Source: a virus. Taken from it: a DNA stretch of 24,124 bases. Position 1 is the stretch's first letter, and the number at the start of each line of letters is the position of its first letter. Below, one piece after another: positions 5,829 to 22,924 of this stretch. The position numbers and the translations under genes are program-made. The notes beneath the pieces are model-generated. The model was given only the letters and a program-made list of their open reading frames with translations. It did no database searches and was not told the DNA's origin. The DNA lies in IMG/VR virus record IMGVR_UViG_3300005589_000103, positions 1 through 24,124 of that record, one strand, 5' to 3'.

Positions 5829-7055
5829 ATGGAAAAGAAAGATTTAGAAGTTGCTTTGGCAGATCACAAAGAAGCCATTGATAAACTTATTGAAGAAAAA
5901 GCTAATGCTAAATCAGCAGAGGTTAAAACAGAGCTTGAAGGTAAGCTTGAAAAAATGGAAGCTGAGAAAGGCGTGATGCAAGAGCAATTGGATAAGATTG
6001 CAACCGATCTTAAAAAAGCTAATTTGGCTATTGAGAAAAAAGACGAAGATATGTCTTTTGATGAATCAATTGCTCAGTTGGTTAAGTCTGACAAGTATAA
6101 ACAAGCCGTTAAGGATGGTTTCCCAAAAGGGAACAATATTTTTGAGGTTAAAGTAGATACTTCGATTATCACAGGCGATGTGAACAGAACACAGCAGCGA
6201 TATGCAATCAATTTTGCACCTGAGAATCAAATGGCTTTCTTGCCTTATTTGGTTAACGGGATGATCGGGCAAGACAGAAACCGAGTACTTTGGGTAGACG
6301 GTGCGTATACTTCGAATGTAGGTTATGTGACAGAAGGAACAGGACAGGCAACCGCTGACACTGGTACTGCTGTTGAGAAATATCGCGAAATGGCTAAAAT
6401 TTCGGCTAAACTTCCTATTACAGAAGAGATGCTGGAAGACGCCAATTATATTGCTTCTGCTTTCCGTGCTAAAATGGTTGAGAAAGCTACATTGTTTGTG
6501 GACGGTGAATCTTATGACGGCGATGGATCGGATGGTGTTAATCCGAAGCATATATACGGTATTAAAGGCCATGCAACAGCATATAGTGCTGCTACTACTG
6601 GAAGCGCTGCGTCTATTGAAAAAGCCAATATTGGCGACTTAGTGGATGACATGATCCTTCAAGCAGAGAAATCAAACTTTAGAGGTTCAAACATTTTATG
6701 GATGAACCCAACCGACTTTAACCGATTTAAGTATGCAAAAGCAACCGATGGTCAATATTTATTTGTTAAAGATGTAAACGGAAGTTATTCAATTTCAGGA
6801 TTAACAGTTATTCGTTCAAACCGTGTTACCGCTGGTGACATGTTGCTTGCAGACACTTCGAAGCTTCAGTACTGGACTAAACGTTCAGCAGAGGTTAAGT
6901 TTAGCCAAATGAATGCTTCTGACTTTATTAACGATGCTTGGACAGCAGTAATGTTTGTTCGCTCACAGGTAGTTGTTGAAACACCTGATAAGTTATCATT
7001 GATTTTTGTTGATGATATTACTGCTGCTATCGCTTCGCTAGACTCAGGTGTTTAA
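5829..7055 (+). CDS. Major capsid protein (HK97 fold)
   Basis: The 408-residue protein is the shell subunit. Residues 1 to about 75 are a charged, coiled-coil delta domain (Lys/Glu-rich, no Pro) that acts as an internal scaffold and should be cut by the preceding protease. The rest carries HK97-type capsid features: GYVTEGTGQATADTGTAVEK and KISAKLPITEEMLEDA (the E-loop to spine-helix transition), FVDGESYDGDGSDG, NILWMNPTDFNRFK, and the C-terminal SQVVVETPDKLSLIFV strand. Length and gene order (protease then capsid) fit the family. The gene has only a weak start context, like its neighbours. Confidence 0.93.
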   Translation: MEKKDLEVALADHKEAIDKLIEEKANAKSAEVKTELEGKLEKMEAEKGVMQEQLDKIATDLKKANLAIEKKDEDMSFDESIAQLVKSDKYKQAVKDGFPKGNNIFEVKVDTSIITGDVNRTQQRYAINFAPENQMAFLPYLVNGMIGQDRNRVLWVDGAYTSNVGYVTEGTGQATADTGTAVEKYREMAKISAKLPITEEMLEDANYIASAFRAKMVEKATLFVDGESYDGDGSDGVNPKHIYGIKGHATAYSAATTGSAASIEKANIGDLVDDMILQAEKSNFRGSNILWMNPTDFNRFKYAKATDGQYLFVKDVNGSYSISGLTVIRSNRVTAGDMLLADTSKLQYWTKRSAEVKFSQMNASDFINDAWTAVMFVRSQVVVETPDKLSLIFVDDITAAIASLDSGV

Positions 7056-7073: not shown

Positions 7074-7529
7074 ATGAAAAAATTAGTTTTTTTAATTTCA
7101 ATGATTTTGGTTAGTGTTGTGTTAATGGCACAGACTACACCAACAGAAGTAGACACCGATGCTAAGATTTCTAAACAATACTATAAGTATGTTTGGGGAA
7201 CTACAGCAGACACTTTAACAAATGCTGATACTTTGGAATTCGTATTCCGAGTACAAGGAACGCAAACACAGGATATAAATATAAATTTATACAGTGACTT
7301 TGTTTCTGGAACAGCAGGCGGAACACTTATTACTTATCGTTCTCCAGATGGAGCTAATTACGTAAGTACAGGTGATACTATCACGGTGGCAAGTTTAACA
7401 GCTGATGGATTAGATACAGAAGAAATAGCATTGGGTGACTATATGAACCCATACTTAAAACTTATCTACATCCAGACAGGGACAGCCGTTACAATACCTA
7501 GAGCCTACGCTTATAGTAAGAAAAATTAG
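7074..7529 (+). CDS. Signal-peptide protein between capsid and connector genes
   Basis: A 151-residue protein with a clear type I signal peptide: two N-terminal Lys, a hydrophobic core (residues 4-18), then A19-Q20 as the likely cleavage point. The mature part is Thr/Asp-rich with alternating polar and hydrophobic residues (DTLTNADTLEFVFRVQG, DININLYSDFVSG) as in small beta-sandwich domains. The place in the operon is where decoration or head-fibre proteins are often found, yet virion proteins assemble in the cytoplasm and normally carry no export signal. Gln as the first mature residue follows the pattern of exported Bacteroidota proteins. It starts 18 bases after the capsid stop. The last base of its stop codon begins a tRNA-like hairpin. 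Function unknown. Confidence 0.8.
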   Translation: MKKLVFLISMILVSVVLMAQTTPTEVDTDAKISKQYYKYVWGTTADTLTNADTLEFVFRVQGTQTQDININLYSDFVSGTAGGTLITYRSPDGANYVSTGDTITVASLTADGLDTEEIALGDYMNPYLKLIYIQTGTAVTIPRAYAYSKKN

Positions 7530-10951: not shown

Positions 10952-12660
10952 TGGGTAAGCTATCAGATTTATTTGTAAAACTCAGACTAGACAACAAGCA
11001 GTACAATTCTGAATTAAAAGAGTCTGGGAAAAAGACTTCAACCTTTGGTAAAGGGATTTCAAAGATAGGCGGTTTAATTGCGGGTGCTTTTGCTGTTGGT
11101 CAGATCGTTTCTTTCGGCAAAGAATTATTAGAGCTTGGTGGCGTTGCGGAAGGTGTTAGGGCTGCATTCAACCGCATTGGGGATGACAAGCTTTTAAATG
11201 ACATGAAGCTTGCGGTGGCAGGTACTGTTTCTGAGTTGGAATTAATGAAACGTGCTGTAATGGCGCACAATTTTAAGATACCAGTAGAGCAGCTTGCAAC
11301 GTTGTTTAAATTTGCCACTAAGAGAGCGCAAGAGACAGGCGAATCTGTAGATTATTTAGTTAACTCAATAGTATTGGGTATCGGCAGGAAGTCTCCATTG
11401 ATACTAGATAATTTAGGCATATCTGCAGTTGAATTGCGCCAAAAACTAGAAGGGGTTGGCCATGCTGGGTCTACCGTTGGAGATGTAGCAAAAGCAGTAG
11501 GAGAGATTGCTGCTGAGTCAATGGCAGAGAGTGGTGAGATTATAGATACTAATGCTATTAAGGTTGCAGCATTAAAGGCTCAATGGGAAGACTTCAAACT
11601 GGCATTAGCGGAAGACCCAGTTATTAGCGACAAGGCTAGTAATTTCCTAGATGCGACAAAAGTAGAGCTGACCGTATTGACGAGTGATTTAAATATATTC
11701 AGAAAGGCATGGCTCATTGCATTCGGAGATATAGAGAAAGCTGCGTCAGATATTAATAAACTAAATAGTGAACGTAAAAAATCAACAAAACACATAGACG
11801 AAGAGTCCGAGGCGTATAGAAACCAGATAGCAGCAGAGCAGGACGCAGCACTAGAAAAGAGAAACCATGTAAAAACAATAAACGAATTAAGAGCCGAAAC
11901 CGAAGCATTAATTAAATCAATAGGTGACTACGGTGTTAATCAAGAAGCTGAGATACAAAAGACACTTAGGCAAATACAAGCCAACAAGGATTTAATAAAA
12001 GAATTAACGACATTAAAAAGGACACAAGACGCTGCTGTTCCTGATAAGATAAAAGGCAAAGGCACACCATCATTTGAAAATGTAGTAGCAGAGGAGGGTG
12101 GGCTTCAAGATATGTCTGGCTTTATTGAGAGACAGAAAGCGTCGGCATTAGCAACGCAAAATGAAATAAATGACGCTATATTGGCGCAGGAGCAAGCTTT
12201 CGTGGATGACATGAATGGCATGATGGCTGCAGGAATGGCTGATTTTATATCTGTATTTGCAGAGGGTATAGGTAGACTTGCAAGCGGTGATATTGGCTTT
12301 GACCAGTTCTTTCAGGCTATATTGGGTCAAATAGGCGGTTTCCTTATTCAGTTCGGATCAATGCTAATATCATACGGTATTGCTGAATCTGCTTTTATGA
12401 AAGCATGGAATCCGGGAGTAAAAATTGCTGCTGGTGCTGCACTTGTTGCAATAGGTGGAGCAATATCTGGATTAGCATCTAAAGGGCCACAAGGGTATTC
12501 AGGCGCAGGAGGTGGAACACAGGTAACGTCAAGAGCCGTGACAGGAGGACAAGGCGTGAACGATCAAGACAATGGACAGCAATTAGTGGCAGTATTAAAA
12601 GGCGATGATCTTTATATATCAAACGAAAGAAACACTTTTAAGAGAGGAGTAATCGGGTAA
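10951..12660 (+). CDS. Tail tape measure protein
   Basis: The 569-residue protein sets tail length. The opening LFVKLRLDNKQYNSELKESGKKTSTFGKGIS is a common tape measure N-terminus. Residues about 60-200 are helical (AEGVRAAFNRIGDD, a TMP family region), and residues about 270-370 are a long charged coiled coil. The C-terminal part has hydrophobic segments (ILGQIGGFLIQFGSMLISYG and AAGAALVAIGGAISGLA) that may enter the host membrane, followed by a Gly-rich tail. At roughly 1.5 A per residue this suggests a tail of about 85 nm, short for a siphovirus. No lytic or peptidase domain is apparent. TAATG overlaps join it to both neighbours. Confidence 0.9.
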   Translation: MGKLSDLFVKLRLDNKQYNSELKESGKKTSTFGKGISKIGGLIAGAFAVGQIVSFGKELLELGGVAEGVRAAFNRIGDDKLLNDMKLAVAGTVSELELMKRAVMAHNFKIPVEQLATLFKFATKRAQETGESVDYLVNSIVLGIGRKSPLILDNLGISAVELRQKLEGVGHAGSTVGDVAKAVGEIAAESMAESGEIIDTNAIKVAALKAQWEDFKLALAEDPVISDKASNFLDATKVELTVLTSDLNIFRKAWLIAFGDIEKAASDINKLNSERKKSTKHIDEESEAYRNQIAAEQDAALEKRNHVKTINELRAETEALIKSIGDYGVNQEAEIQKTLRQIQANKDLIKELTTLKRTQDAAVPDKIKGKGTPSFENVVAEEGGLQDMSGFIERQKASALATQNEINDAILAQEQAFVDDMNGMMAAGMADFISVFAEGIGRLASGDIGFDQFFQAILGQIGGFLIQFGSMLISYGIAESAFMKAWNPGVKIAAGAALVAIGGAISGLASKGPQGYSGAGGGTQVTSRAVTGGQGVNDQDNGQQLVAVLKGDDLYISNERNTFKRGVIG

Positions 12661-14945
12661 TGGCATACGGACTTAAATATTGGAACGAATTTAAAAGTTA
12701 CTATGATGACACTATCAGGATAGAGATTCTTGGTAATGGCTTTTCTGGCTCGTCTACAGAAATAAAAACATCTGAAACGCCTTTAGTAATATCTTATCCT
12801 GGAAGCGACGAAACGCCATACAATCCAATAGTAGGTAGTCAAGCTAAAATACAAATGTTATCAGAGGTTGATTTTCAGTTTATAGAGCTGCATGATTCAG
12901 ATGCAAGGGCGCACCGTGTAGATATTTATAAAAACTCAGTCCTAGATTGGCGTGGTTGGGTATTGCCTGATTTATTCTCAGAGCCTTATGTCGCACCTCC
13001 GTATATAGTTGAAATAACAGCAAGGTGCGGTCTGGGTGAACTGAAAGAGACAATAATTCCAGCAACAATGACAGAATACACATTGTCTCCACTTTCTATT
13101 GAAACAACCGACCAACCAAGGCTATTAACGATACTATCTAACGCACTCGGAACAATAGATACCGAGTTAGATTTAAACGATGCTATAAACGTATATTCTA
13201 ATGAAACGGACAATACAGACGACAGTCCACTATATGAAACAACTATAAAGCTTTCAGCATACGAAGGCAAAACGCTTTACGATGCTATATCTGACCAGAT
13301 GCTAACCTTTGGTGCTAGACTATATCAGATGGGTGCTGAGTGGTGGATCGTTAGAATAAAAGAAACGACAGCAGATTTAACGGTAAGGAAGTGGAATTAT
13401 ACGACGACAGGCTATAAAACAAATACAGTAAGCACAACTAAAAATACTTCTTTCTTAATTGGAAGACCAGTAGCCAGTCAGATTTTAACAAACTCACCAC
13501 AACTAGACCTTAATCCGGGATGGAAAGAATTTAATTGGGTTCAGGACTTGGGCAGGAAAGATAGTTTCCTTTTAAATAGCGATTTTTCTAAGTGGAAAGA
13601 TAATGGAGACCCAGAAGATTGGGATCTGTCAACATCAGGAATAGCTGAACGAATACAAGGTCAGGATTTCCCATATGCAGAAATAACAACGCAAAACACA
13701 TTGGCAGCAAGGCAGTACATATCGCAAACAATCGAAGGTTGCAAGATGTACCCGATTGTCAGTCTTGATGATAGGAAATTATTATTTAATTTTGAGTTTG
13801 GTGTTTGGAGAAAAGATAAAGTACCTGATTATTCTGAAAATGCAGTAGTAAGTCAGCAGGCTATAATATGTGAATTTAAGTTTGTTGGCGATAGTGGCAC
13901 CTTTTATTTAAAACAAAATCAGAACGGAAACGGAAATAGCTTGGTATGGAATACAGTACAGCAGACTGTTCAAATAACAGTATTTGGAACAGGAAAGGAA
14001 GGTGTATTAACATTTGACGAAGGAACTTTCACTGCTGACACATTCCCTGGCAACGGTACTTTTTTTGTAAAAATATACAATGCACTTTCTCCATTATCAG
14101 CAAGTGATAAATTCATAACAACAGCCTTTAAAAACATATCTGTAAGGCTACTAAATGGAGATGGTGAGGACTTTAGAAACGAAGAAATAACAAACATATT
14201 AATAAACCAAAGTAACATTTACAAGCCGTCAGACATAAACGTTGTTGGTGGTGATTTGCCGAATGAATACCCAGATGATCTGAATAAATTATTAACATGG
14301 GATAACGGATATAGAAATAGGGATGGTGAAGCCACTGAGGAATGGCACGAGAGAGGATCGGCAATAGACAAACCATTGCTGCAGTTGATGGGTGATGATT
14401 ATAAAGGTATATTTTCGAAGCCACAATTTAAACTATCAGTTCCTATATTGTCTCAGGATATACAGTTCGATAGTACTATTGTTGATTATCAGATATTACC
14501 TAAAGAGTATATTTGTATAAGTGCTGATTTGGATTATAGGTCTGCAATATTCTCTGGAACTTTTGTTGAATTTGCTGCATGGGATGGTACTGCATGGATT
14601 CTAGAGACTGGATTCTGGAATGATGAAGGAATATGGATAGATGAGGATACTTGGAGAGATGGAGACTCGGACGTAATAGAATATACCCTTGAAAGTCCAA
14701 TTTATTCAGCTGGATCAAAAGTGCAGATTTCAGAATCAGGAATAGGGGACACTGTAGAAACATTCCCAAGCATAGGGTCAATAAGTGACGGTAATATTGC
14801 ACCAATACCATCAGTGCCTCACGTGTTGGCTGTTGGTTCTGTTTGGTTTAAAATACCAGTAGATTTTTCAGGAATAGCGCAAACGTCATTTGATGTGACG
14901 ATAAGCGGAATATTAAAAAGAGTAATAATAAACTTAAATATATAA
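12660..14945 (+). CDS. Large distal tail / tail-tip protein
   Basis: The 761-residue protein directly follows the tape measure, the place of distal tail (Dit) and hub proteins. The N-terminal 150 residues (YYDDTIRIEILGNGFSGSST, ETPLVISYPGSDETPYNPIVGS, VDIYKNSVLDWRGWVLPDLF) match a pattern I associate with tail proteins of Bacteroidota phages, with a beta-sandwich that could form the ring at the tube end. The middle (about 300-500) looks like a carbohydrate-binding-type beta domain (FLLNSDFSKWKDNGDPEDWD resembles the start of such a module). The C-terminal part has repeated Trp/Asp motifs (TAWILETGFWNDEGIWIDED). No enzyme motif or signal peptide is seen. Confidence 0.65.
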   Translation: MAYGLKYWNEFKSYYDDTIRIEILGNGFSGSSTEIKTSETPLVISYPGSDETPYNPIVGSQAKIQMLSEVDFQFIELHDSDARAHRVDIYKNSVLDWRGWVLPDLFSEPYVAPPYIVEITARCGLGELKETIIPATMTEYTLSPLSIETTDQPRLLTILSNALGTIDTELDLNDAINVYSNETDNTDDSPLYETTIKLSAYEGKTLYDAISDQMLTFGARLYQMGAEWWIVRIKETTADLTVRKWNYTTTGYKTNTVSTTKNTSFLIGRPVASQILTNSPQLDLNPGWKEFNWVQDLGRKDSFLLNSDFSKWKDNGDPEDWDLSTSGIAERIQGQDFPYAEITTQNTLAARQYISQTIEGCKMYPIVSLDDRKLLFNFEFGVWRKDKVPDYSENAVVSQQAIICEFKFVGDSGTFYLKQNQNGNGNSLVWNTVQQTVQITVFGTGKEGVLTFDEGTFTADTFPGNGTFFVKIYNALSPLSASDKFITTAFKNISVRLLNGDGEDFRNEEITNILINQSNIYKPSDINVVGGDLPNEYPDDLNKLLTWDNGYRNRDGEATEEWHERGSAIDKPLLQLMGDDYKGIFSKPQFKLSVPILSQDIQFDSTIVDYQILPKEYICISADLDYRSAIFSGTFVEFAAWDGTAWILETGFWNDEGIWIDEDTWRDGDSDVIEYTLESPIYSAGSKVQISESGIGDTVETFPSIGSISDGNIAPIPSVPHVLAVGSVWFKIPVDFSGIAQTSFDVTISGILKRVIINLNI

Positions 14946-14946
14946 A

Positions 14947-15585
14947 ATGGCATTTACAGAAATAGACGATGGTGATAGCGGATTAAGCGCAAGAACAGAG
15001 CTAAACTCTATAATTACATATTTGAATGCTTTAGGTTTTCAAATACAGTTCAGCGCAGATAATGCAACATGGCATTACCCTTGGGCTAGTGGTGATTTAT
15101 ATATGAGACTATCAGGTGACTTTGGTGCTACTTGGTCGGACGGTATTTATTTAGCCTATTCCGCAAGCGGCGCAAGCGGTTGGACTTCTGCTGTATGGGA
15201 TGACACAACTGGTAATCTTGAATTTTACAAAGATGCCGTTTTAGACTACACTGTTAATTTAGATGGAAGATATGCGTTAGAGTTACCACAGACATTATTC
15301 GAAATGACATTACCAGCATCTACCACTGTTGCTGGACGCATATCTGGAGCAACACTTCCACTTGGTTGGTCTATTGCGGCTTCAGGAACAGATTTAATAG
15401 TAACGCATGGAGAAGCAAGAAGAGTTGCACAAGTTTCTATCTTTGCCGTAACAGGGACGGAGGAGCAGCAGCTCTTTAACACAGCAGCCTATAATGGTAT
15501 AATAACAACTGATGAAGACACCTTGAAAATTCAAAGTTTGGCTACAATAAATAAAGTTATAAAAGTATATATGATATTCGTATGA
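14947..15585 (+). CDS. Putative tail-tip or fibre-associated protein
   Basis: A 212-residue protein, rich in Ala, Ser, Thr and aromatic residues, without a signal peptide. The first half has repeating short motifs (ISADNATWHYP-like, SGDLYMRLSGDFGATWSDG, AVWDDTTGNLEFYKDAV) such as occur in phage fibre shafts and in Bacteroidota tail-tip proteins. The second half reads like a small beta domain (TLPLGWSIAASGTDLIVTHG). It begins 1 base after the distal tail gene and its end overlaps the following fibre gene by ATGA. Location suggests a baseplate or fibre component; the family is not recognised. Confidence 0.55.
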   Translation: MAFTEIDDGDSGLSARTELNSIITYLNALGFQIQFSADNATWHYPWASGDLYMRLSGDFGATWSDGIYLAYSASGASGWTSAVWDDTTGNLEFYKDAVLDYTVNLDGRYALELPQTLFEMTLPASTTVAGRISGATLPLGWSIAASGTDLIVTHGEARRVAQVSIFAVTGTEEQQLFNTAAYNGIITTDEDTLKIQSLATINKVIKVYMIFV

Positions 15586-18500
15586 GAAAATTATTAATTA
15601 TATTATTTGTTTTATTTTCATTTGTTGGATATTCGCAAATCCAAGACAGCCTGCAAGATGAGTATTACAGGGAAATAGACTGGAAGTTTTACCCTGCGGA
15701 TGTTGTGATATTGACAGACTCAACTTACGAATTTGCAGCAGAACCTTTTGACTATAACGACCCCGGAGCAATTGAACGAAAGATAGGAAATTACGTTGTT
15801 GACTTTATTGGTCATAGATATTTAGTAATTGATTCAACATCTACGACAATATCAGTTTGGGACCAGTACGAAACAGGACAAGCACCTCAGACAAATCAGA
15901 TAGCAAGATGCTATAAATCAGTAGGGGGTGGAGTCGCTGAATATGTTGGTTCGGTTGATTACTCTACACTGGATTTGTCTGCACGCTGGAAGATTAACGG
16001 CGCAGATAATGAGTTGCTTTGGCGGCAACTCGGACAGCCATTTGATTCAATAACATTTAACCCAGACGTAATACCAATTCCTACAACTGAATATACTATT
16101 TATGCCGACACTGCAAACCTTACATTAACCGTCAACTTGCCGAACGGAATAAGGATGCAAGTAAATCAGGAGTCATTGACTACTGTTTACAACAATACTG
16201 CCGATACGCTAAAGGATGGTAGGGTAATTGGTGTTGATGGGATTGCTAACGATTTAGTAGCAGTTAGGTACGTGTCAAAAACAGAACGTCATGACTTTTT
16301 CGGAGTTACAACAGCAGATATACCACCATATACTAAGGGATTAATAGTTTCAATAGAAGGAAAAGTCAATGATATAAACACAGGCACATTAACTCTAGGC
16401 GCTATTTATGTTGATTCATTAGGATATTTTACAAATGAAAATCCACAGTTTCCATATTACGACTATCCGGTTGGGTTATGTATAAAAACAGGCGTAACTG
16501 ATGGAATAATTCAATGGCGTAGTGATGGAGTAAACTACAGGAACTCTATAACGCATTATTTTGATGGCGCGATTAGGGAAACATTTGATTTTAGAACCTA
16601 CTCAGACGGCATTAATTCTTACGGCATTCTGTCCAATCCGAACGGCTCAGACAAGTTAACGCTTGTTTATAGTGACGGATGGTATGACTTCCAAGTTCCA
16701 GACACGATACAGTTAATTTCAGGAACAGCAACAACGCCACAGATTCAATACGCTTACATTGATGCAGCAACACGAACACTACAAGTAAGCTCAGGCGGTT
16801 ATCCAATTATAGAGCATTCCAAGGTGGCGACATTAATCATAGCAGATGCCGTATCTACTCAAGACTACGGCGCCTTGAGAAATCAGAATATTAACGATCA
16901 CTTTAAATCAGATGACGATAACGGTCACGTTTTGCATATGGCAGAACGAATAAGAGTAATGAATGCAGAATGGGAAAGCGGAACGGCTGCTAGCCTACTA
17001 GGCACACCCACTAACGTTTATATTGACGTTACAGGTGGCAAGGTTTGGCAAATGCACTTGCAAACATTCCCTACTATTGAGATGTCGTCTGGTGACGGTA
17101 TTAATATAGTAAATGACCCGGTGTCACCATATCGAAATACAACTAATCTAAACGACATAACCGTTTATTCAGATGGTAGTAATTGGAATAATGAGTGGGG
17201 TAATATTGTTATTTGGGGAGTTTGCAATAAGACAGGTGAGATTAGCCATTTAATGTGCAATCTTCCTAGTGATGGATATTTACAGGAAGATGCAGCAGTT
17301 GAAGACCCTGACAATTTTACTAATTACACTATCCCAAGAGACTTTAGAGGAGTTGGTTTTTTGATTGGACGTTTTACAATCAGAAGATCAGGGGGCAACT
17401 TCACTTATAATTCAGGCACTGGATATTTAGATTTGAGAGGATATATGCCTAACAATACGGTGGGTGGTGGCACAGGAAGTTCTGGAATTACGGACTACAC
17501 ACAACTTGATGATACACCATCCAGTCTTATTGCATTAGCATTTCAGAGAGCAAGCGCGGACGGCACTGCATTAGAAAACGTATTGGCCGGGGATGTTCTT
17601 TTAACGGAATTTGACTCAGCAGGTTTCAGTGTTGATTATTCACAAGTAAACAACACCCCAACCATAGGTGACGGATTAGTAACCATACAAGGCTCAGCAG
17701 TCGAGAACTCACCTGAGACATTTACTCTAAACCAAACGACTCCTAAAACAATTACTATTAATCAGGCAGATGTTAAACAGGCAGCACTTGACACAATCAC
17801 TTTAGCATCTCACGGATTCGTAGTTGGTGATGTGATAGATTACAACGCAAAGGCTATTGCGAACAATCCAGACAATGCCAACGTAATAGGAATAGTTTAT
17901 GAGGTAATTGACGTTAATACTTTTACATATCAGCATTCAGGATTATACGATAAAGGTTCTTGGGTAGTTGGTATGAATTACTTTCTATCCACTTCGGTAG
18001 CAGGGGAAACAGCAGACACTACACAGCTTTATGAGGTTGGAGATGTTTATTTGTTTATTGGCACAGGCGTTGATGGTGGATTGCAGCTTGAAATTGATGT
18101 GGGATTTTTGATTGAGGAACAAACATCTGGAGCAGATACAATAATAGGAGGGTATGGAATAAATGTAAATTACGCGGCCTCTGCTGCAACTATTGCAGTT
18201 GATACTTCTACGATAGCGACTACAGAGCGAGTTGATACTATTGGACTAGAAGAAGTTGTCGCTGTTAATAATTATAGCCCCATAGGAATAGAACTTGGTA
18301 GTGAGTCAGACGGAGCTGATGGAGATATAAGGGTGAATGTTGGCACTGATGTTGATAAAGATGGTATAACAATAGCAAGGCGCAAGGGATTGGCAAATTA
18401 TCAGACTAATCTATTCCACGAAGGTGGGTCATTAGCTAAATTTGTAATCGAAAACAGGTCCCTAAGTAGTGACAATATAGGCTCAATAACGAATAGGATT

Positions 18501-18992
18501 GGCAACACAAGCAATATTAACACGTATTTTGCAATTGAAAATTTAGACAGCACTAGATTGTTAACTGTCGATTATTGGGGCAATGCTGATTTTTCAGGAA
18601 CAGTATCGGGCGATGACGCTGTGCTCGATGCGGAGTATGTAACCAAAGGGCAAGCAGACTCTTTATATACAGGAAGCTCAGATTCAAGGCAAACACTAAC
18701 AAGCGGTGCAGCTATTACTTTTGATTATGACTTGGGTAATGATGCTGAATTAGTGCTTGCTACAAACGCTACTATTACATTTCAAGACGTACCAGATTTT
18801 GGTAATGGAGACATTGAGTTAAGACAAGATGCAACAGGTAGCAGAACTTTAGCCTTTGCTGAGAATATAACAGGCGTTACGTCGATAGATGAGGGTATAG
18901 TTAGTAATATCCAACCAGACGCAAGTACATATACAATTATTCATTACAAGAGACGCGACGAAATTTTATATGTAACAATAGAATGGAGATAA
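15582..18992 (+). CDS. Large fibre-like protein with signal peptide
   Basis: A 1136-residue protein, the largest in the window. Residues 1-18 are a signal peptide (MRKLLIILFVLFSFVGYS) with Gln19 as expected first mature residue. The rest is Asp/Asn/Thr/Gly-rich and beta-repetitive, as in tail fibres. Segments include TDYTQLDDTPSS (about 640), a DTITLASHGFVVGDVIDYNA module of the type found in phage structural proteins, and repeated short 'GxG' turns. The C-terminal TLTSGAAITFDYDLGNDAELVLATNATITF with the following 60 residues resembles a beta-helical tip domain common in phage fibres and exposed adhesins. It probably forms the host-recognition fibre. The export signal conflicts with cytoplasmic assembly and is shared by the next three genes. 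No protease or glycosidase motif is seen. Confidence 0.7.
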   Translation: MRKLLIILFVLFSFVGYSQIQDSLQDEYYREIDWKFYPADVVILTDSTYEFAAEPFDYNDPGAIERKIGNYVVDFIGHRYLVIDSTSTTISVWDQYETGQAPQTNQIARCYKSVGGGVAEYVGSVDYSTLDLSARWKINGADNELLWRQLGQPFDSITFNPDVIPIPTTEYTIYADTANLTLTVNLPNGIRMQVNQESLTTVYNNTADTLKDGRVIGVDGIANDLVAVRYVSKTERHDFFGVTTADIPPYTKGLIVSIEGKVNDINTGTLTLGAIYVDSLGYFTNENPQFPYYDYPVGLCIKTGVTDGIIQWRSDGVNYRNSITHYFDGAIRETFDFRTYSDGINSYGILSNPNGSDKLTLVYSDGWYDFQVPDTIQLISGTATTPQIQYAYIDAATRTLQVSSGGYPIIEHSKVATLIIADAVSTQDYGALRNQNINDHFKSDDDNGHVLHMAERIRVMNAEWESGTAASLLGTPTNVYIDVTGGKVWQMHLQTFPTIEMSSGDGINIVNDPVSPYRNTTNLNDITVYSDGSNWNNEWGNIVIWGVCNKTGEISHLMCNLPSDGYLQEDAAVEDPDNFTNYTIPRDFRGVGFLIGRFTIRRSGGNFTYNSGTGYLDLRGYMPNNTVGGGTGSSGITDYTQLDDTPSSLIALAFQRASADGTALENVLAGDVLLTEFDSAGFSVDYSQVNNTPTIGDGLVTIQGSAVENSPETFTLNQTTPKTITINQADVKQAALDTITLASHGFVVGDVIDYNAKAIANNPDNANVIGIVYEVIDVNTFTYQHSGLYDKGSWVVGMNYFLSTSVAGETADTTQLYEVGDVYLFIGTGVDGGLQLEIDVGFLIEEQTSGADTIIGGYGINVNYAASAATIAVDTSTIATTERVDTIGLEEVVAVNNYSPIGIELGSESDGADGDIRVNVGTDVDKDGITIARRKGLANYQTNLFHEGGSLAKFVIENRSLSSDNIGSITNRIGNTSNINTYFAIENLDSTRLLTVDYWGNADFSGTVSGDDAVLDAEYVTKGQADSLYTGSSDSRQTLTSGAAITFDYDLGNDAELVLATNATITFQDVPDFGNGDIELRQDATGSRTLAFAENITGVTSIDEGIVSNIQPDASTYTIIHYKRRDEILYVTIEWR

Positions 18993-18994
18993 TT

Positions 18995-19795
18995 ATGAGA
19001 AGAATTATAACGATATTATTAGTTTTTTGTTCGCTTATTTCGGTAGGACAATTCAGACTCCCTACTGTCAACTTGCGCAATGGACTAGTAATGTACATGA
19101 AGTTTGAAGAAACAATCGGAACAACTGCATTTGATGAAACTAAAAACTCCAATGACGGAACAATAAACGGGGCGACAATTAACCAAACAGGTAAAATCGG
19201 CAAATGCTATAGCTATAACGGCACTAGTAATAGTATAGCAATAGGCAATATTGGTATATCTTATCCTTTCTGTGTCAGCTCCTGGGTAAAGCACAATGGT
19301 ACTACATCAAATAGCAATATATTTTCGGCATCATCTGGAACAGATGCATTCTATCACTCCGTTTATTTAGACTACAATGGAGGAGTCAACGATAATATAG
19401 TTATTAGGAGTTATGACGGAACTGTTAGAGATAATGCGTATCAATATAATTTCACCTCAGGTGAATGGCTTCACATAGTTGCGGTGTGGGAGTCAGCAAT
19501 TTCAAGAAAATTATATTTTAATGGAGCTTTAGTTGCAACAGGGACTATATCTGTGTCTGGGATAGGTCTTGAAAATGTGACCATCGGGGTAAGCGCGGAT
19601 AATACTCCAACTAATTATTTTGGAGGATATATTGACGATACTTCAGTGTACTACAGAGCGTTGTCATTAATAGGAGTAAAGCAATTATACAATTCAGGAA
19701 ACGGTTTATTGTACGTTTACGAAAACTACTTAAACGATGGAGACTTTGAAAAATTTAATAACTACGCAAAAGAATATTTTGCATTAAATAAATAA
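18995..19795 (+). CDS. LamG/concanavalin-like adhesin with signal peptide
   Basis: From ATG 18995 the protein has 266 residues and starts with a signal peptide (MRRIITILLVFCSLISVG, then Gln19). An ATG at 18983, inside the previous gene, adds four residues and weakens the signal, so 18995 is preferred. The mature part matches the LamG-like jelly-roll fold: NGLVMYMKFEETIGTTAFDE at the beginning, SSWVKHNG, GEWLHIVAVWESAISRKLYF and the YFGGYIDDTSVYYRALS ending are the standard strands of this family (Laminin_G_3). Such domains bind glycans. It overlaps the preceding fibre gene's frame end and probably serves host attachment. Confidence 0.8.
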   Translation: MRRIITILLVFCSLISVGQFRLPTVNLRNGLVMYMKFEETIGTTAFDETKNSNDGTINGATINQTGKIGKCYSYNGTSNSIAIGNIGISYPFCVSSWVKHNGTTSNSNIFSASSGTDAFYHSVYLDYNGGVNDNIVIRSYDGTVRDNAYQYNFTSGEWLHIVAVWESAISRKLYFNGALVATGTISVSGIGLENVTIGVSADNTPTNYFGGYIDDTSVYYRALSLIGVKQLYNSGNGLLYVYENYLNDGDFEKFNNYAKEYFALNK

Positions 19796-19797
19796 GC

Positions 19798-20301
19798 ATG
19801 AAAAGATTAATTATATTACTATTCGTTCTGGCTTCTGTTTACGGACAGGCTCAGATTGTTATCCCTAAAGATACTATCAAAATAAATATGAGCCCTATTA
19901 TCTTGGATTTAGGAAGCTATAATATTAGATATTTAGGGGATGTTGTGAATGACTCCATAATGATGCAAACAACTGCTTACCCACCTTTTGTTAAACTCGA
20001 ATTAGTTGATAATATATTCAAGTCTAAATCATACAAGAGAGATACTGTAATTGCCGGGATAAATTACCATCCACTAAAGAAACCTATCTTTAAGTTGTGG
20101 CGATCTGGGAAAATAACAATTTGCCAAAAGGTTTTAAGATCAACAAAAGGATTAGCAGACAAGCCAAAGGACATACAAAAATGGCTTTACTTGGATAAAG
20201 CGTACAAGCTAAAAGCCAGTCCAGATGCGTTATGGACTTATCCTGCAGTTGTAAAATTAGATGAAGTTTCAATAATACCACAAAAAGATACAATCAAATG
20301 A
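19798..20301 (+). CDS. Hypothetical secreted protein in fibre block
   Basis: A 167-residue protein with signal peptide MKRLIILLFVLASVYGQA and likely cleavage before Gln19. The mature part begins IVIPKDTIKINMSPIILDLG and contains YPPFVKLELVDNIFK and several Lys-rich strands; no family is recognised. It begins 2 bases after the LamG gene and ends in an ATGA overlap with the S74 fibre gene, so it is translated with them. It might be a chaperone or small subunit for the exported fibre proteins; this is inference from position only. Confidence 0.65.
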   Translation: MKRLIILLFVLASVYGQAQIVIPKDTIKINMSPIILDLGSYNIRYLGDVVNDSIMMQTTAYPPFVKLELVDNIFKSKSYKRDTVIAGINYHPLKKPIFKLWRSGKITICQKVLRSTKGLADKPKDIQKWLYLDKAYKLKASPDALWTYPAVVKLDEVSIIPQKDTIK

Positions 20302-21740
20302 AAATACTAACAATCATATTAATATTTCTATCTGTTGCAACTTACGGACAGAAAAAAGGACGGGCTATTTCGGCAGCTAAAATAGATGTGGGGAGGGTTT
20401 CAATTGTGGATTACGACCCTGTGGTTGATTCACTTGAAGTTGTAGAAGATGGGGTTTCGTTTAAGACCGAGATCAAAACGTATAAAATAGATACTGTCTA
20501 TATTAGCACAGGTGACACGCTCGTTATTGATGAAGAAGGCAGGGTATGGAAAGTTGGGCTGCCGTCTACTGCACCTCAAACGCTGTCTTGGAACGGAGGA
20601 AACGGTCAGATAACTATAAGCGGTGGAAATACAATTGATATTGATGGTAGGTATGGTCAATTGGGTGCGAGTAATACATGGACAGGTGCACAGTCGATTA
20701 GCTCATCAACTTCACAATTGTACTTCAAAGACGGTGCGGCATTCAATGGGCAGATAATAGGAACGTCTGTGGGGTTATTAGTAGATGCGAATACAGCTCA
20801 GTTAACACTCAGGGGAGATACAAAATCAATATACATTAGTAGCTCAGGCGTCAGAGCCGACCTAGACGCAGGAACTTCAGCAAATGTAGTTTATATTCAA
20901 TCTGATGGTGAATTGACTTTTGGGGCTGCTGTGGGTGGTCTTTGGGCTGATGGGGGTACGACTACCTATCTAACTGCAACAGGTGATAATGTGAGGATAG
21001 GGAGTGCAACGGCAACAACATATAAGTTCCAAGTTGACGGCACTTCATTGTTTACCAACGATATGCGAATAACAAATTCAATACCAACCCTGTATTTGGA
21101 TGACACAGATGGTTCTGATGATGATTTTTCGATAACGAATGGGAGTAGTTCTTTTGCTATATTTAATGAAACTGACAATGAGCCAGCAATAACTATCGAT
21201 GGGGCTGCGAATAATAAGATTTATTTTGGCACTTACGGAACAGGCACGCATACAGGGACAGCCGCCTATAATTTAGAAGTAACTTCAGCAGGGATTGTTA
21301 TCGAAACAACCGCAGGTTCAGACTTCCGCATGAAAAAGAATTTCAGAACATTGCACAGTTCGCTAAGCAAAATACTTGCATTAAATACTTATGCTTTTGA
21401 TTGGATTCCGAACGAACAATTACCTAAGAAAGCTCAGGATGCTGCTTTTGATATTAAGGTCAATCAAGACTACAAAGCTAGAGAAAGCTCAGGGGTAATA
21501 GCTCAGGAGATTCAAAACATAATCCCTGAAGCCGTAAAACAATATAATAATGGGTATTATTCAGTAGATTATGACGCGATAATCCCACATCTTATAGAAG
21601 CAATAAAAGAACAGCAAAAACAAATAGACAAACTGGAAGATAGATTAATCCTACTGGAGCGAGCCGAAAAACCAAAAGGCAAATATCCTTGCTCAAATAC
21701 TATAATGTATGAATTAAAGCAGTTAATCAATGAAAAATAG
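20298..21740 (+). CDS. Fibre protein with S74 self-cleaving chaperone and signal peptide
   Basis: A 480-residue protein. Residues 1-17 are a signal peptide (MKILTIILIFLSVATYG) with Gln18 next. Residues about 90-335 are short beta repeats (NTWTGAQSISSSTSQLYFKD, DLDAGTSANVVYIQSDGELT) typical of a trimeric fibre shaft. The C-terminal 140 residues are a peptidase S74 intramolecular chaperone: SDFRMKKNF with the cleavage Ser341, GVIAQEIQNIIPEAV, YSVDYDAIIPHLIEAIKEQQ, and a final coiled coil. In known members the domain guides trimer folding and then cuts itself off. A signal peptide on an S74 fibre is unusual. A 21-codon frame starts in its last 11 bases. Confidence 0.85.
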   Translation: MKILTIILIFLSVATYGQKKGRAISAAKIDVGRVSIVDYDPVVDSLEVVEDGVSFKTEIKTYKIDTVYISTGDTLVIDEEGRVWKVGLPSTAPQTLSWNGGNGQITISGGNTIDIDGRYGQLGASNTWTGAQSISSSTSQLYFKDGAAFNGQIIGTSVGLLVDANTAQLTLRGDTKSIYISSSGVRADLDAGTSANVVYIQSDGELTFGAAVGGLWADGGTTTYLTATGDNVRIGSATATTYKFQVDGTSLFTNDMRITNSIPTLYLDDTDGSDDDFSITNGSSSFAIFNETDNEPAITIDGAANNKIYFGTYGTGTHTGTAAYNLEVTSAGIVIETTAGSDFRMKKNFRTLHSSLSKILALNTYAFDWIPNEQLPKKAQDAAFDIKVNQDYKARESSGVIAQEIQNIIPEAVKQYNNGYYSVDYDAIIPHLIEAIKEQQKQIDKLEDRLILLERAEKPKGKYPCSNTIMYELKQLINEK

Positions 21741-21845: not shown

Positions 21846-21932
21846 ATGGCGATTAGACCTACAAAACCGAAATTACCCACAAAAGAAACAGAACCAACGA
21901 CAAAAAAGCCAACAGTTCCAAAAAAGAAATGA
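21846..21932 (+). CDS. Tiny Pro/Lys/Thr-rich peptide
   Basis: A 28-residue frame, ATG 21846 to TGA 21932, overlapping the next gene by ATGA. It consists almost only of Pro, Lys, Thr and Glu (it starts MAIRPTKPKLPTKETEPTTK) and should be disordered. Similar low-complexity Pro/Lys-rich small proteins occur near lysis genes of some Bacteroidota phages, but I cannot name a family. The 50 bases before it are very AT-rich and hold no clear promoter. Confidence 0.45.
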   Translation: MAIRPTKPKLPTKETEPTTKKPTVPKKK

Positions 21933-22282
21933 TAACTGCAAAAAATATATTTGGACTAATACTAGTATTACTCGTAGCTGCATACATGATTTTTGCTGAT
22001 GTTGATTCTGATATTTGGGGTAGTTTTTATTTTTGCGTTTGGAATCTTATTTGCCTTTGGTTTGGTCATTTATTATTAAAGTCATATCGTGACAAGATAC
22101 TATCAATTGTTATTAAGATAATAATGGGCGTATCTATATTGAAATTGTTTTTAAATGTATATTCATTTTTTGACATTGATATTTTTAATAAAATAAATAG
22201 ATCACATGAGGCAGGCGGAGTTGTGGTTGGATGTATTTTAATCTTTTTAATTTATAGTAATGGGCGACTGGTTAAAAGATAG
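21929..22282 (+). CDS. Multi-span membrane protein, holin candidate
   Basis: A 117-residue protein with about four hydrophobic segments (residues 7-23, 29-50, 57-80, 94-109) separated by short charged loops (KSYRDK, KINRSHEAGG). No family is recognised. It lies at the beginning of the lysis block, two genes before the endolysin, which fits a holin or antiholin. It overlaps the following membrane protein by 23 bases. It could also be an unrelated small membrane protein. Confidence 0.65.
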   Translation: MITAKNIFGLILVLLVAAYMIFADVDSDIWGSFYFCVWNLICLWFGHLLLKSYRDKILSIVIKIIMGVSILKLFLNVYSFFDIDIFNKINRSHEAGGVVVGCILIFLIYSNGRLVKR

Positions 22283-22538
22283 ACCGTTTATGGCATGGCT
22301 GCTAAATCTATTATCAGCCGTTCTAATTGTTTTTATTGGATTTTGGGCTTATGGGTTCAGGGATTCAAATAGTGCTGATGAAGCAAGGATAAAGCGACTT
22401 GAGGATCAAAAAGCAGAGATAACATCAGTTGATAAGCATTATGAATTAATACAAGAACAATTAGACAAAAAGGCAGACAAAAGCTTAGTGGAAAGTATGG
22501 ATAGTAAACTTGATTTAATACTTCAAAGATTAAAATGA
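22260..22538 (+). CDS. Single-span membrane protein with coiled coil, holin or spanin candidate
   Basis: A 92-residue protein with one membrane helix (AWLLNLLSAVLIVFIGFWAY, about residues 12-31) followed by a charged coiled coil (about 42-90, ending DSKLDLILQRLK). The short N-terminus (MGDWLKDRPFM) and the long soluble helical tail resemble both small holin-type proteins and inner-membrane spanins. It starts within the preceding gene and overlaps the endolysin start by ATGA, so it is very likely part of the lysis cassette. No lipobox partner (outer-membrane spanin) was identified. Confidence 0.7.
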   Translation: MGDWLKDRPFMAWLLNLLSAVLIVFIGFWAYGFRDSNSADEARIKRLEDQKAEITSVDKHYELIQEQLDKKADKSLVESMDSKLDLILQRLK

Positions 22539-22924
22539 CACTTAGAGAACAGCAATCAGTCTTTGCATTAAACTTTGCAAAATTAGTAATCTTTGCTAAT
22601 GAAAATGGCTATGAGATAACGCACGGAGAAGGTTGGCGCACACACGATCAACAAGTATTATATTTCGAAGGATATACAATAATTAAGGTAGGAAGTACAT
22701 TGAAGTTAGCAAAGTGTACCACGCGCTCTAAAACGATGTTCAGCAAGCACCTTAAAAAGCTAGCACACGACATTAATCTATTTTATAAAGGTAGGCTTCT
22801 AGGTAGTGCAAAAAAAGACAGGGAACACTGGAAAATACTTGCCGATTATTGGCGAGCCTTACATCCTGAGAATGAATCAGGTTATGATTGGGGCTGGGAT
22901 TTAGGACATTTTCAAATGAATTAA
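22535..22924 (+). CDS. M15-type peptidoglycan peptidase (endolysin)
   Basis: The 129-residue protein matches phage M15 (D-Ala-D-Ala or L-Ala-D-Glu type) peptidases. The start LREQQSVFALNFAKLVIFAN and GEGWRTHDQQ are characteristic. Zinc ligands are visible as His72 in SKHLKKLAHDI, Asp79 in the same motif, and His125 in the C-terminal DLGHFQ. The enzyme cuts peptide cross-links or stems in the wall to release virions. It has no signal peptide, so it needs a holin; two membrane proteins directly upstream are candidates. It overlaps the upstream gene by ATGA and is followed with no gap by a small basic gene. Confidence 0.88.
   Translation: MTLREQQSVFALNFAKLVIFANENGYEITHGEGWRTHDQQVLYFEGYTIIKVGSTLKLAKCTTRSKTMFSKHLKKLAHDINLFYKGRLLGSAKKDREHWKILADYWRALHPENESGYDWGWDLGHFQMN

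Follow-up and report, generated by a model that had tools for sequence, protein, structure and literature searches.

In Bacteroidetes species, on average 71% of the predicted substrates of signal peptidase I (SPI), which are cellular proteins, carry Gln at the +1 position (Bochtler 2018, PMC5837995). Five genes with unknown functions in phages of Porphyromonas gingivalis have been reported to follow the same Gln rule; their products are, in the part of that report considered here, proposed as outer-membrane modifiers and linked neither to fibres nor to mass spectrometry (MS) of virions (Matrishin 2023, PMC10367356). A study on targets of diversity-generating retroelements took a missing signal peptide as support for a phage origin over a surface-displayed bacterial origin (PMC6199706). 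Here, we analyse a 24,124-bp linear contig of an uncultured tailed virus (IMG/VR record IMGVR_UViG_3300005589_000103), the whole of which is called the window, and in particular five of its genes, starting at 7074, 15582, 18995, 19798 and 20298. These share the signal anatomy and the Gln at +1 with the Bacteroidetes SPI substrates and are phage-borne like the P. gingivalis genes, but the cassette formed by the last four encodes probable virion fibres. Assembly of tailed phages is taught as being cytoplasmic. We favour, with moderate confidence, a reading in which the five gene products are peripheral virion parts made as precursors for the general secretory (Sec) pathway and joined to the virion core outside the inner membrane. 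While phages are known to use the Gln rule, there seems to be no earlier description of MS-supported virion fibres that follow it, and we found no report on signal-bearing virion fibres of Bacteroidota tailed phages in the open-access literature.

According to the original prediction, the five proteins begin with classical signal peptides leaving Gln as first mature residue, and signal prediction was named as a way to check this. The open reading frames (ORFs) and N-termini proved to be as predicted. Rejection by prediction tools, which would have counted as refutation, was not seen with the rule-based caller used here, which scores a positive n-region, a hydrophobic core and the -3/-1 rule and ignores the +1 residue. 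All five (5/5) were accepted as type I signal peptides with a Lys/Arg n-region, a hydrophobic core, a small residue at -1 and an exposed Gln at +1, as listed below (^, predicted SPI cleavage site):

7074 to 7529, + strand: head-region protein of 151 residues, candidate capsid decoration protein (family of 14, AlphaFold2 (AF2) model, Foldseek); signal at nucleotides 7074-7130, MKKLVFLISMILVSVVLMA^QTT, mature start Gln20.
15582 to 18992, + strand: large fibre protein of 1136 residues with a tail-fibre domain; signal at 15582-15635, MRKLLIILFVLFSFVGYS^QIQ, mature start Gln19.
18995 to 19795, + strand: fibre protein of 266 residues with a LamG/concanavalin-A-like lectin domain (Pfam PF13385, E-value 9e-19); signal at 18995-19048, MRRIITILLVFCSLISVG^QFR, mature start Gln19; an alternative start at 18983 adds MEII.
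19798 to 20301, + strand: small fibre-cassette protein of 167 residues, assigned by position; signal at 19798-19851, MKRLIILLFVLASVYGQA^QIV, mature start Gln19, or ending at 19845, VYG^QAQ, mature start Gln17, with Gln at +1 in both.
20298 to 21740, + strand: fibre protein of 480 residues with a C-terminal S74 intramolecular chaperone (Pfam PF13884, E-value 4e-12); signal at 20298-20348, MKILTIILIFLSVATYG^QKK, mature start Gln18; the caller scores SVA^TYG slightly above this site.

None of the five window proteins has a lipobox or a Cys at +1 as in SPII lipoproteins. No model of the C-terminal sorting domain of the type IX secretion system in NCBIfam or Pfam matched, so that these proteins are expected to stop in the periplasm and not to reach the medium. 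The caller found no Gln-rule signal in other structural-module genes of the window, the tail-tip, tape-measure, portal and capsid proteins being signal-less. ORF 4-351 resembles a sixth case but was rejected: by comparison with a related contig (L004:4110; L-numbers denote related contigs or phage records compared with the window), it is the 3' end of a longer gene, the start of which lies upstream and the hydrophobic product of which probably spans the membrane. The products of 3702 and 21929, which are membrane-protein-like and lack the Gln, were rejected as well.

Chance or an artefact of signal prediction is an extremely improbable explanation. The signal calls do come from a home-made caller, but the first polar residue past the hydrophobic core is Gln in all five proteins against a background of 8.9%, giving a binomial p of 6e-6 for the window alone. 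Among 24 non-redundant virion-region proteins of relatives and analogues, 15 likewise have Gln as the first polar residue (p = 1e-10), the remainder mostly having N or P first and Gln at a later cleavage site. Moreover, the caller gives no signal in any of the 19 non-cassette virion proteins labelled by tandem mass spectrometry (MS/MS) in the phages phi10:1, phi19:1 and phi18:3, and the listed virion-region proteins of phi4:1, phi14:2, phi38:1 and phi12:1 are signal-less, except for one small membrane-anchored protein encoded beside the endolysin gene.

Evidence for a virion role comes from cultured Cellulophaga phages, in which we discovered signal-bearing fibre cassettes in three families, i.e. 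Assiduviridae (phi10:1 gp091-gp095, phi19:1 gp101-gp102), Pachyviridae (phi18:3 gp085-gp087) and Duneviridae; matching signal-bearing genes are also present in phi19:3, phi13:2, phi46:3 and Ingeline (Duneviridae). As in the window, the cassettes of phi10:1, phi19:1, phi18:3 and Ingeline consist of consecutive fibre genes with signals nearly all following the Gln rule; one of the Cellulophaga cassette proteins, phi19:3 gp090, has a signal lacking the Gln. Unlike the signal trait, sequence homology to the window fibres is not detectable, and in contrast to the window no signal-bearing gene was seen behind the capsid gene in phi10:1 and phi19:1. In the public records, the annotation of which is taken as given, nine of the ten signal-bearing cassette proteins of phi10:1, phi19:1 and phi18:3 are annotated as virion proteins by experimental MS/MS, compared to 0/7 of the remaining Gln-rule proteins in phi10:1, phi19:1, phi18:3 and phi14:2, all surveyed by MS (p = 4e-4), which argues that exported proteins in general do not merely co-purify. 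Signal peptides are mentioned neither in the Cellulophaga phage records nor in PMC8776804. In proteins of the gp093 type, the N-terminal 100 residues including the signal are common to phages of two families and the rest may differ, a sequence pattern that would fit a docking module.

This MS/MS annotation speaks against proteins acting on the host only, and export of the fibres with attachment outside the inner membrane, one of three options named in the original prediction beside host-modifying surface proteins and another use of the signals, is now the best supported one. An action mainly at the host surface before lysis, by masking or degrading receptors or capsule or by phage exclusion, with copies reaching the virions, is unlikely. 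It would agree with signals directing the proteins to the envelope, with several proteins being lectin-like or annotated as pectate lyase, and with the host-surface role proposed for the P. gingivalis proteins in the part of PMC10367356 considered. Against it stand the virion record of nearly the whole set of cassette proteins examined, the homologous domains in ordinary signal-less tail fibres and the presence of a signal also on a head-region gene.

This head-region gene, 7074, lies directly 3' of the major capsid gene, and in 14 contigs including the window the capsid gene is immediately followed by a signal-bearing gene; one of these contigs (L003) was placed via product homology and not via a capsid match. 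The relatives of the 7074 product go down to 18-29% identity with the window protein, and the mean column identity of the family alignment is 37%. A^Q is present in 14/14 members, adding to the case against chance made in the original prediction. Since Ala19 and Gln20 are, together with Met1, the sole invariant columns, the alignment argues for selection for cleavage, and selection in the family appears to be strongest at the cleavage site. This bears on the decidedly unlikely alternative that the hydrophobic N-termini are retained as anchors or assembly elements within the virion, the export pathway remaining unused. Tailed-phage virions normally being assembled in the cytoplasm and fibre N-terminal regions normally docking on the tail would both accord with retention, but a conserved A/G/S^Q straight after the core is most simply explained by cleavage, and related fibres with other N-termini have no signal.

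Several contigs (L009, L012, L014, L016, L017, L022 and L024) have no 7074-type gene, suggesting that its product is an optional part, like decoration proteins. The AF2 model of 7074 consists of the signal helix and an eight-strand beta-sandwich with a predicted local distance difference test score (pLDDT) of 70. Foldseek against the PDB returned, among carbohydrate-binding modules, weak matches of this model to the phage capsid chains 3j4u_H (BPP-1 capsid entry, jellyroll, E-value 4e-3) and 8cjz_A (Carin1 capsid chain). The likeness to the BPP-1 decoration/cement jellyroll lies in the modelled beta-sandwich, a similarity which is weak and common to carbohydrate-binding modules. As a small predicted beta-sandwich encoded next to the capsid gene, the 7074 product is a candidate capsid decoration protein. 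Known capsid decoration proteins are encoded in the head module; to our knowledge, they do not carry an export signal. Searching the phage collection by tblastn with the major capsid protein and with 7074 gave no match.

In the fibre cassette, 15582, 18995 and 20298 combine a tail-fibre position with fibre domains, 20298 also matching PHROG tail fibre families, whereas 19798 is included by position alone, no known domain being found in it with Pfam or PHROG. Residues about 150-315 of 15582 form a tail-fibre domain in common with signal-bearing fibres of L012 and L016 and with signal-less fibres elsewhere. The protein also matches the tail fibre of Roseobacter phage CRP-6, itself without signal, the family being wide. 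An AF2 model of the 15582 N-terminus (pLDDT 34) was set aside, and we do not claim that 19798 is homologous to the small signal-bearing partner protein of L058, L061 and L074, as a forced alignment gave only about 22%.

The signal is linked to the cassette in an all-or-none manner. In loci mostly from related phages or contigs, fibres with the 15582-related domain and a signal have signal-bearing Gln-rule neighbours in 30 of 33 cases, the other three ending at a contig edge, whereas those without signal lack a signal-bearing neighbour in 27 of 28; a second query resulted in a similar split. Ordinary tail fibres with the S74 chaperone or shared domains resemble the window proteins in the C-terminal domains and partly in gene position, but have other N-termini and no signal, and a signal-less virion protein of phi4:1 shares a stretch with phi10:1 gp092. 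Among phages of Cellulophaga strain #18, phi18:3 has a signal cassette and phi18:1 has none. As phages of one host species, and even of one strain, differ, the signal is no by-product of the host, and these differences together with the two-setting split suggest that it follows the assembly strategy of the phage lineage and neither the fibre domain nor the host. It is also very improbable that the cassettes are recently captured host genes for secreted adhesins with inconsequential leftover signals. Signal peptides do occur on bacterial proteins with an S74 or LamG domain, but here the signals are maintained over deeply diverged homologues and whole cassettes, and the genes are placed between tail-tip and lysis genes in the window and behind related tail-tip genes elsewhere.

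The wider survey of Bacteroidota phage fibres envisaged in the original prediction gave a divided picture. Signals are present in the Cellulophaga cassettes described above, and no Gln-rule fibre or structural gene was found in FPSV-S2, phi18:1, B124-14, 11b, BT12, PM682P4 and BO1, nor, with part of the structural region covered, in phi12:1, phi4:1, phi14:2, phi38:1, FCL-2 and P12024L. These 13 isolates of a small survey, lacking the trait in the parts covered, indicate that it is patchy and common only in some lineages.

Together, these data suggest that the signal-bearing products very probably are virion components exported via Sec and processed by SPI, and that in some tailed phages the fibres probably leave the cytoplasm and are joined to the particle on the outer side of the inner membrane. 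As only the outermost parts are signal-bearing, and this as whole cassettes, separate export next to a cytoplasmic core is the simplest model. In the window virus, the five genes would encode a head decoration protein and a distal fibre set as Sec pre-proteins, which the host translocon would carry across the inner membrane. SPI would cut these at A/G/S^Q, the new N-terminal Gln probably being cyclised as in other Gln-rule proteins, while the signal-less capsid, tail tube and tail tip would be built in the cytoplasm. Outside the inner membrane, core and exported set would come together, most simply as lysis mixes cytoplasm with periplasm; the fibres would dock on the tail tip or the neck, and the decoration protein would bind to the head. 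Candidate docking partners are the signal-less proteins encoded 5' of the cassette, namely 14947 in the window, 18872 in L012 and 5386 in L057.

Several points weigh against this two-compartment assembly. Export, cleavage, cyclisation and the place and time of docking are steps that we infer. The MS annotation concerns fibres of other phages, which are analogues and not sequence homologues of the window fibres, and large exported fibres may co-purify with virions; most of the non-cassette Gln-rule proteins are small, which somewhat weakens their comparison with the cassette proteins. The p-values of the linkage are optimistic since the loci are mostly related, and the virion role of 7074 is read from gene position and a model of moderate confidence.

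We tentatively put forward the broader possibility that two-compartment assembly is a general, exchangeable strategy of Bacteroidota tailed phages, in which particles would be released bare, a pyroglutamate-capped, Sec-exported set would be added outside and the cassette would move between families. If many fibres of Bacteroidota phages were exported, the absence of a signal as criterion for phage origin would misclassify genes. Virions could then gain infectivity only outside the inner membrane, fibres could acquire envelope modifications such as pyroglutamate and perhaps glycans, and the signal would need to be considered in work on the function of such fibres. The motif D[ST][AILMVT], which we take to be the Bacteroidota O-glycosylation sequon, is about twofold enriched in the signal-bearing proteins of the window (25 vs 12) and not in other virion proteins; the control motif D[NG][AILMVT] shows an equal enrichment in these proteins, and the Cellulophaga fibres are depleted of D[ST][AILMVT].

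The window, which agrees with the 35,920-bp contig IMGVR_3300027828_000067 at 100% identity in overlapping stretches, shows a siphovirus gene order, with functions assigned partly by position and general knowledge: terminase (391/894), portal (2037), MuF-like protein (3841), protease (5133), HK97 capsid (5829) and 7074, followed by connectors, tape measure (10951), tail tip (12660), 14947, the four cassette genes and membrane/lysis genes (21929-22924). Three neighbours of the signal-bearing genes matter here:

5829 to 7055, + strand: HK97-type major capsid protein, providing the context of 7074 (Pfam PF05065, E-value 1e-18).
12660 to 14945, + strand: tail-tip protein without signal by the caller, presumed cytoplasmic tail part (phrog_23570).
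14947 to 15585, + strand: last tail-region protein without signal, directly 5' of the signal-bearing cassette; by signal caller and position a candidate for a docking partner in the cytoplasm.

Homologues of 12660 stand ahead of signal-bearing fibres in L012, L016, L107 and L111, and L012 and L016 have a small signal-less protein at the position equivalent to 14947. Among the best-listed matches of the large terminase subunit in cultured phages, most belong to phages of Bacteroides, Parabacteroides and Flavobacterium (about 38-40% identity), and the host of the window virus is probably a member of the Bacteroidota. Capsid genes close to that of the window, with a Gln-rule gene behind, also occur in L020 and L021, in metagenome-assembled genomes labelled Calditrichia and Actinomycetota, for which binning errors are possible.

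Further observations concern signals at other positions. L006 (9029-11804) has two more signal-bearing genes inserted after the post-capsid gene and ahead of the connector genes, one of them following the Gln rule with fibre-like repeats. Capsid precursors in L010 (9824-11221), L015 (7310-8683) and L023 (2279-3658) start with an additional hydrophobic helix, conserved among them, ahead of a scaffold-like region, as if membrane-anchored during head assembly, to be compared with the P. gingivalis phage capsid proteins reported with signal peptides. Croceibacter phage P2559S (L158:12432-12935) encodes, between head and tail genes, a protein with the signal peptide CNA^A lacking the Gln. The crAss-like phage phi14:2 (L040:9-1278) encodes two proteins that follow the Gln rule and are candidate host-envelope modifiers; one of them carries the annotation OmpA-domain membrane protein. 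A small protein of phage FCL-2 (L157:25364-25807), encoded far from the tail genes, may start with a Gln-rule signal (TYS^Q), behind which the sequence is fibre-like. Finally, L080, L087, L096 and L101 carry signal-bearing fibre genes around position 6000, in the head-tail connector region and not behind the tail tip, suggesting neck fibres.

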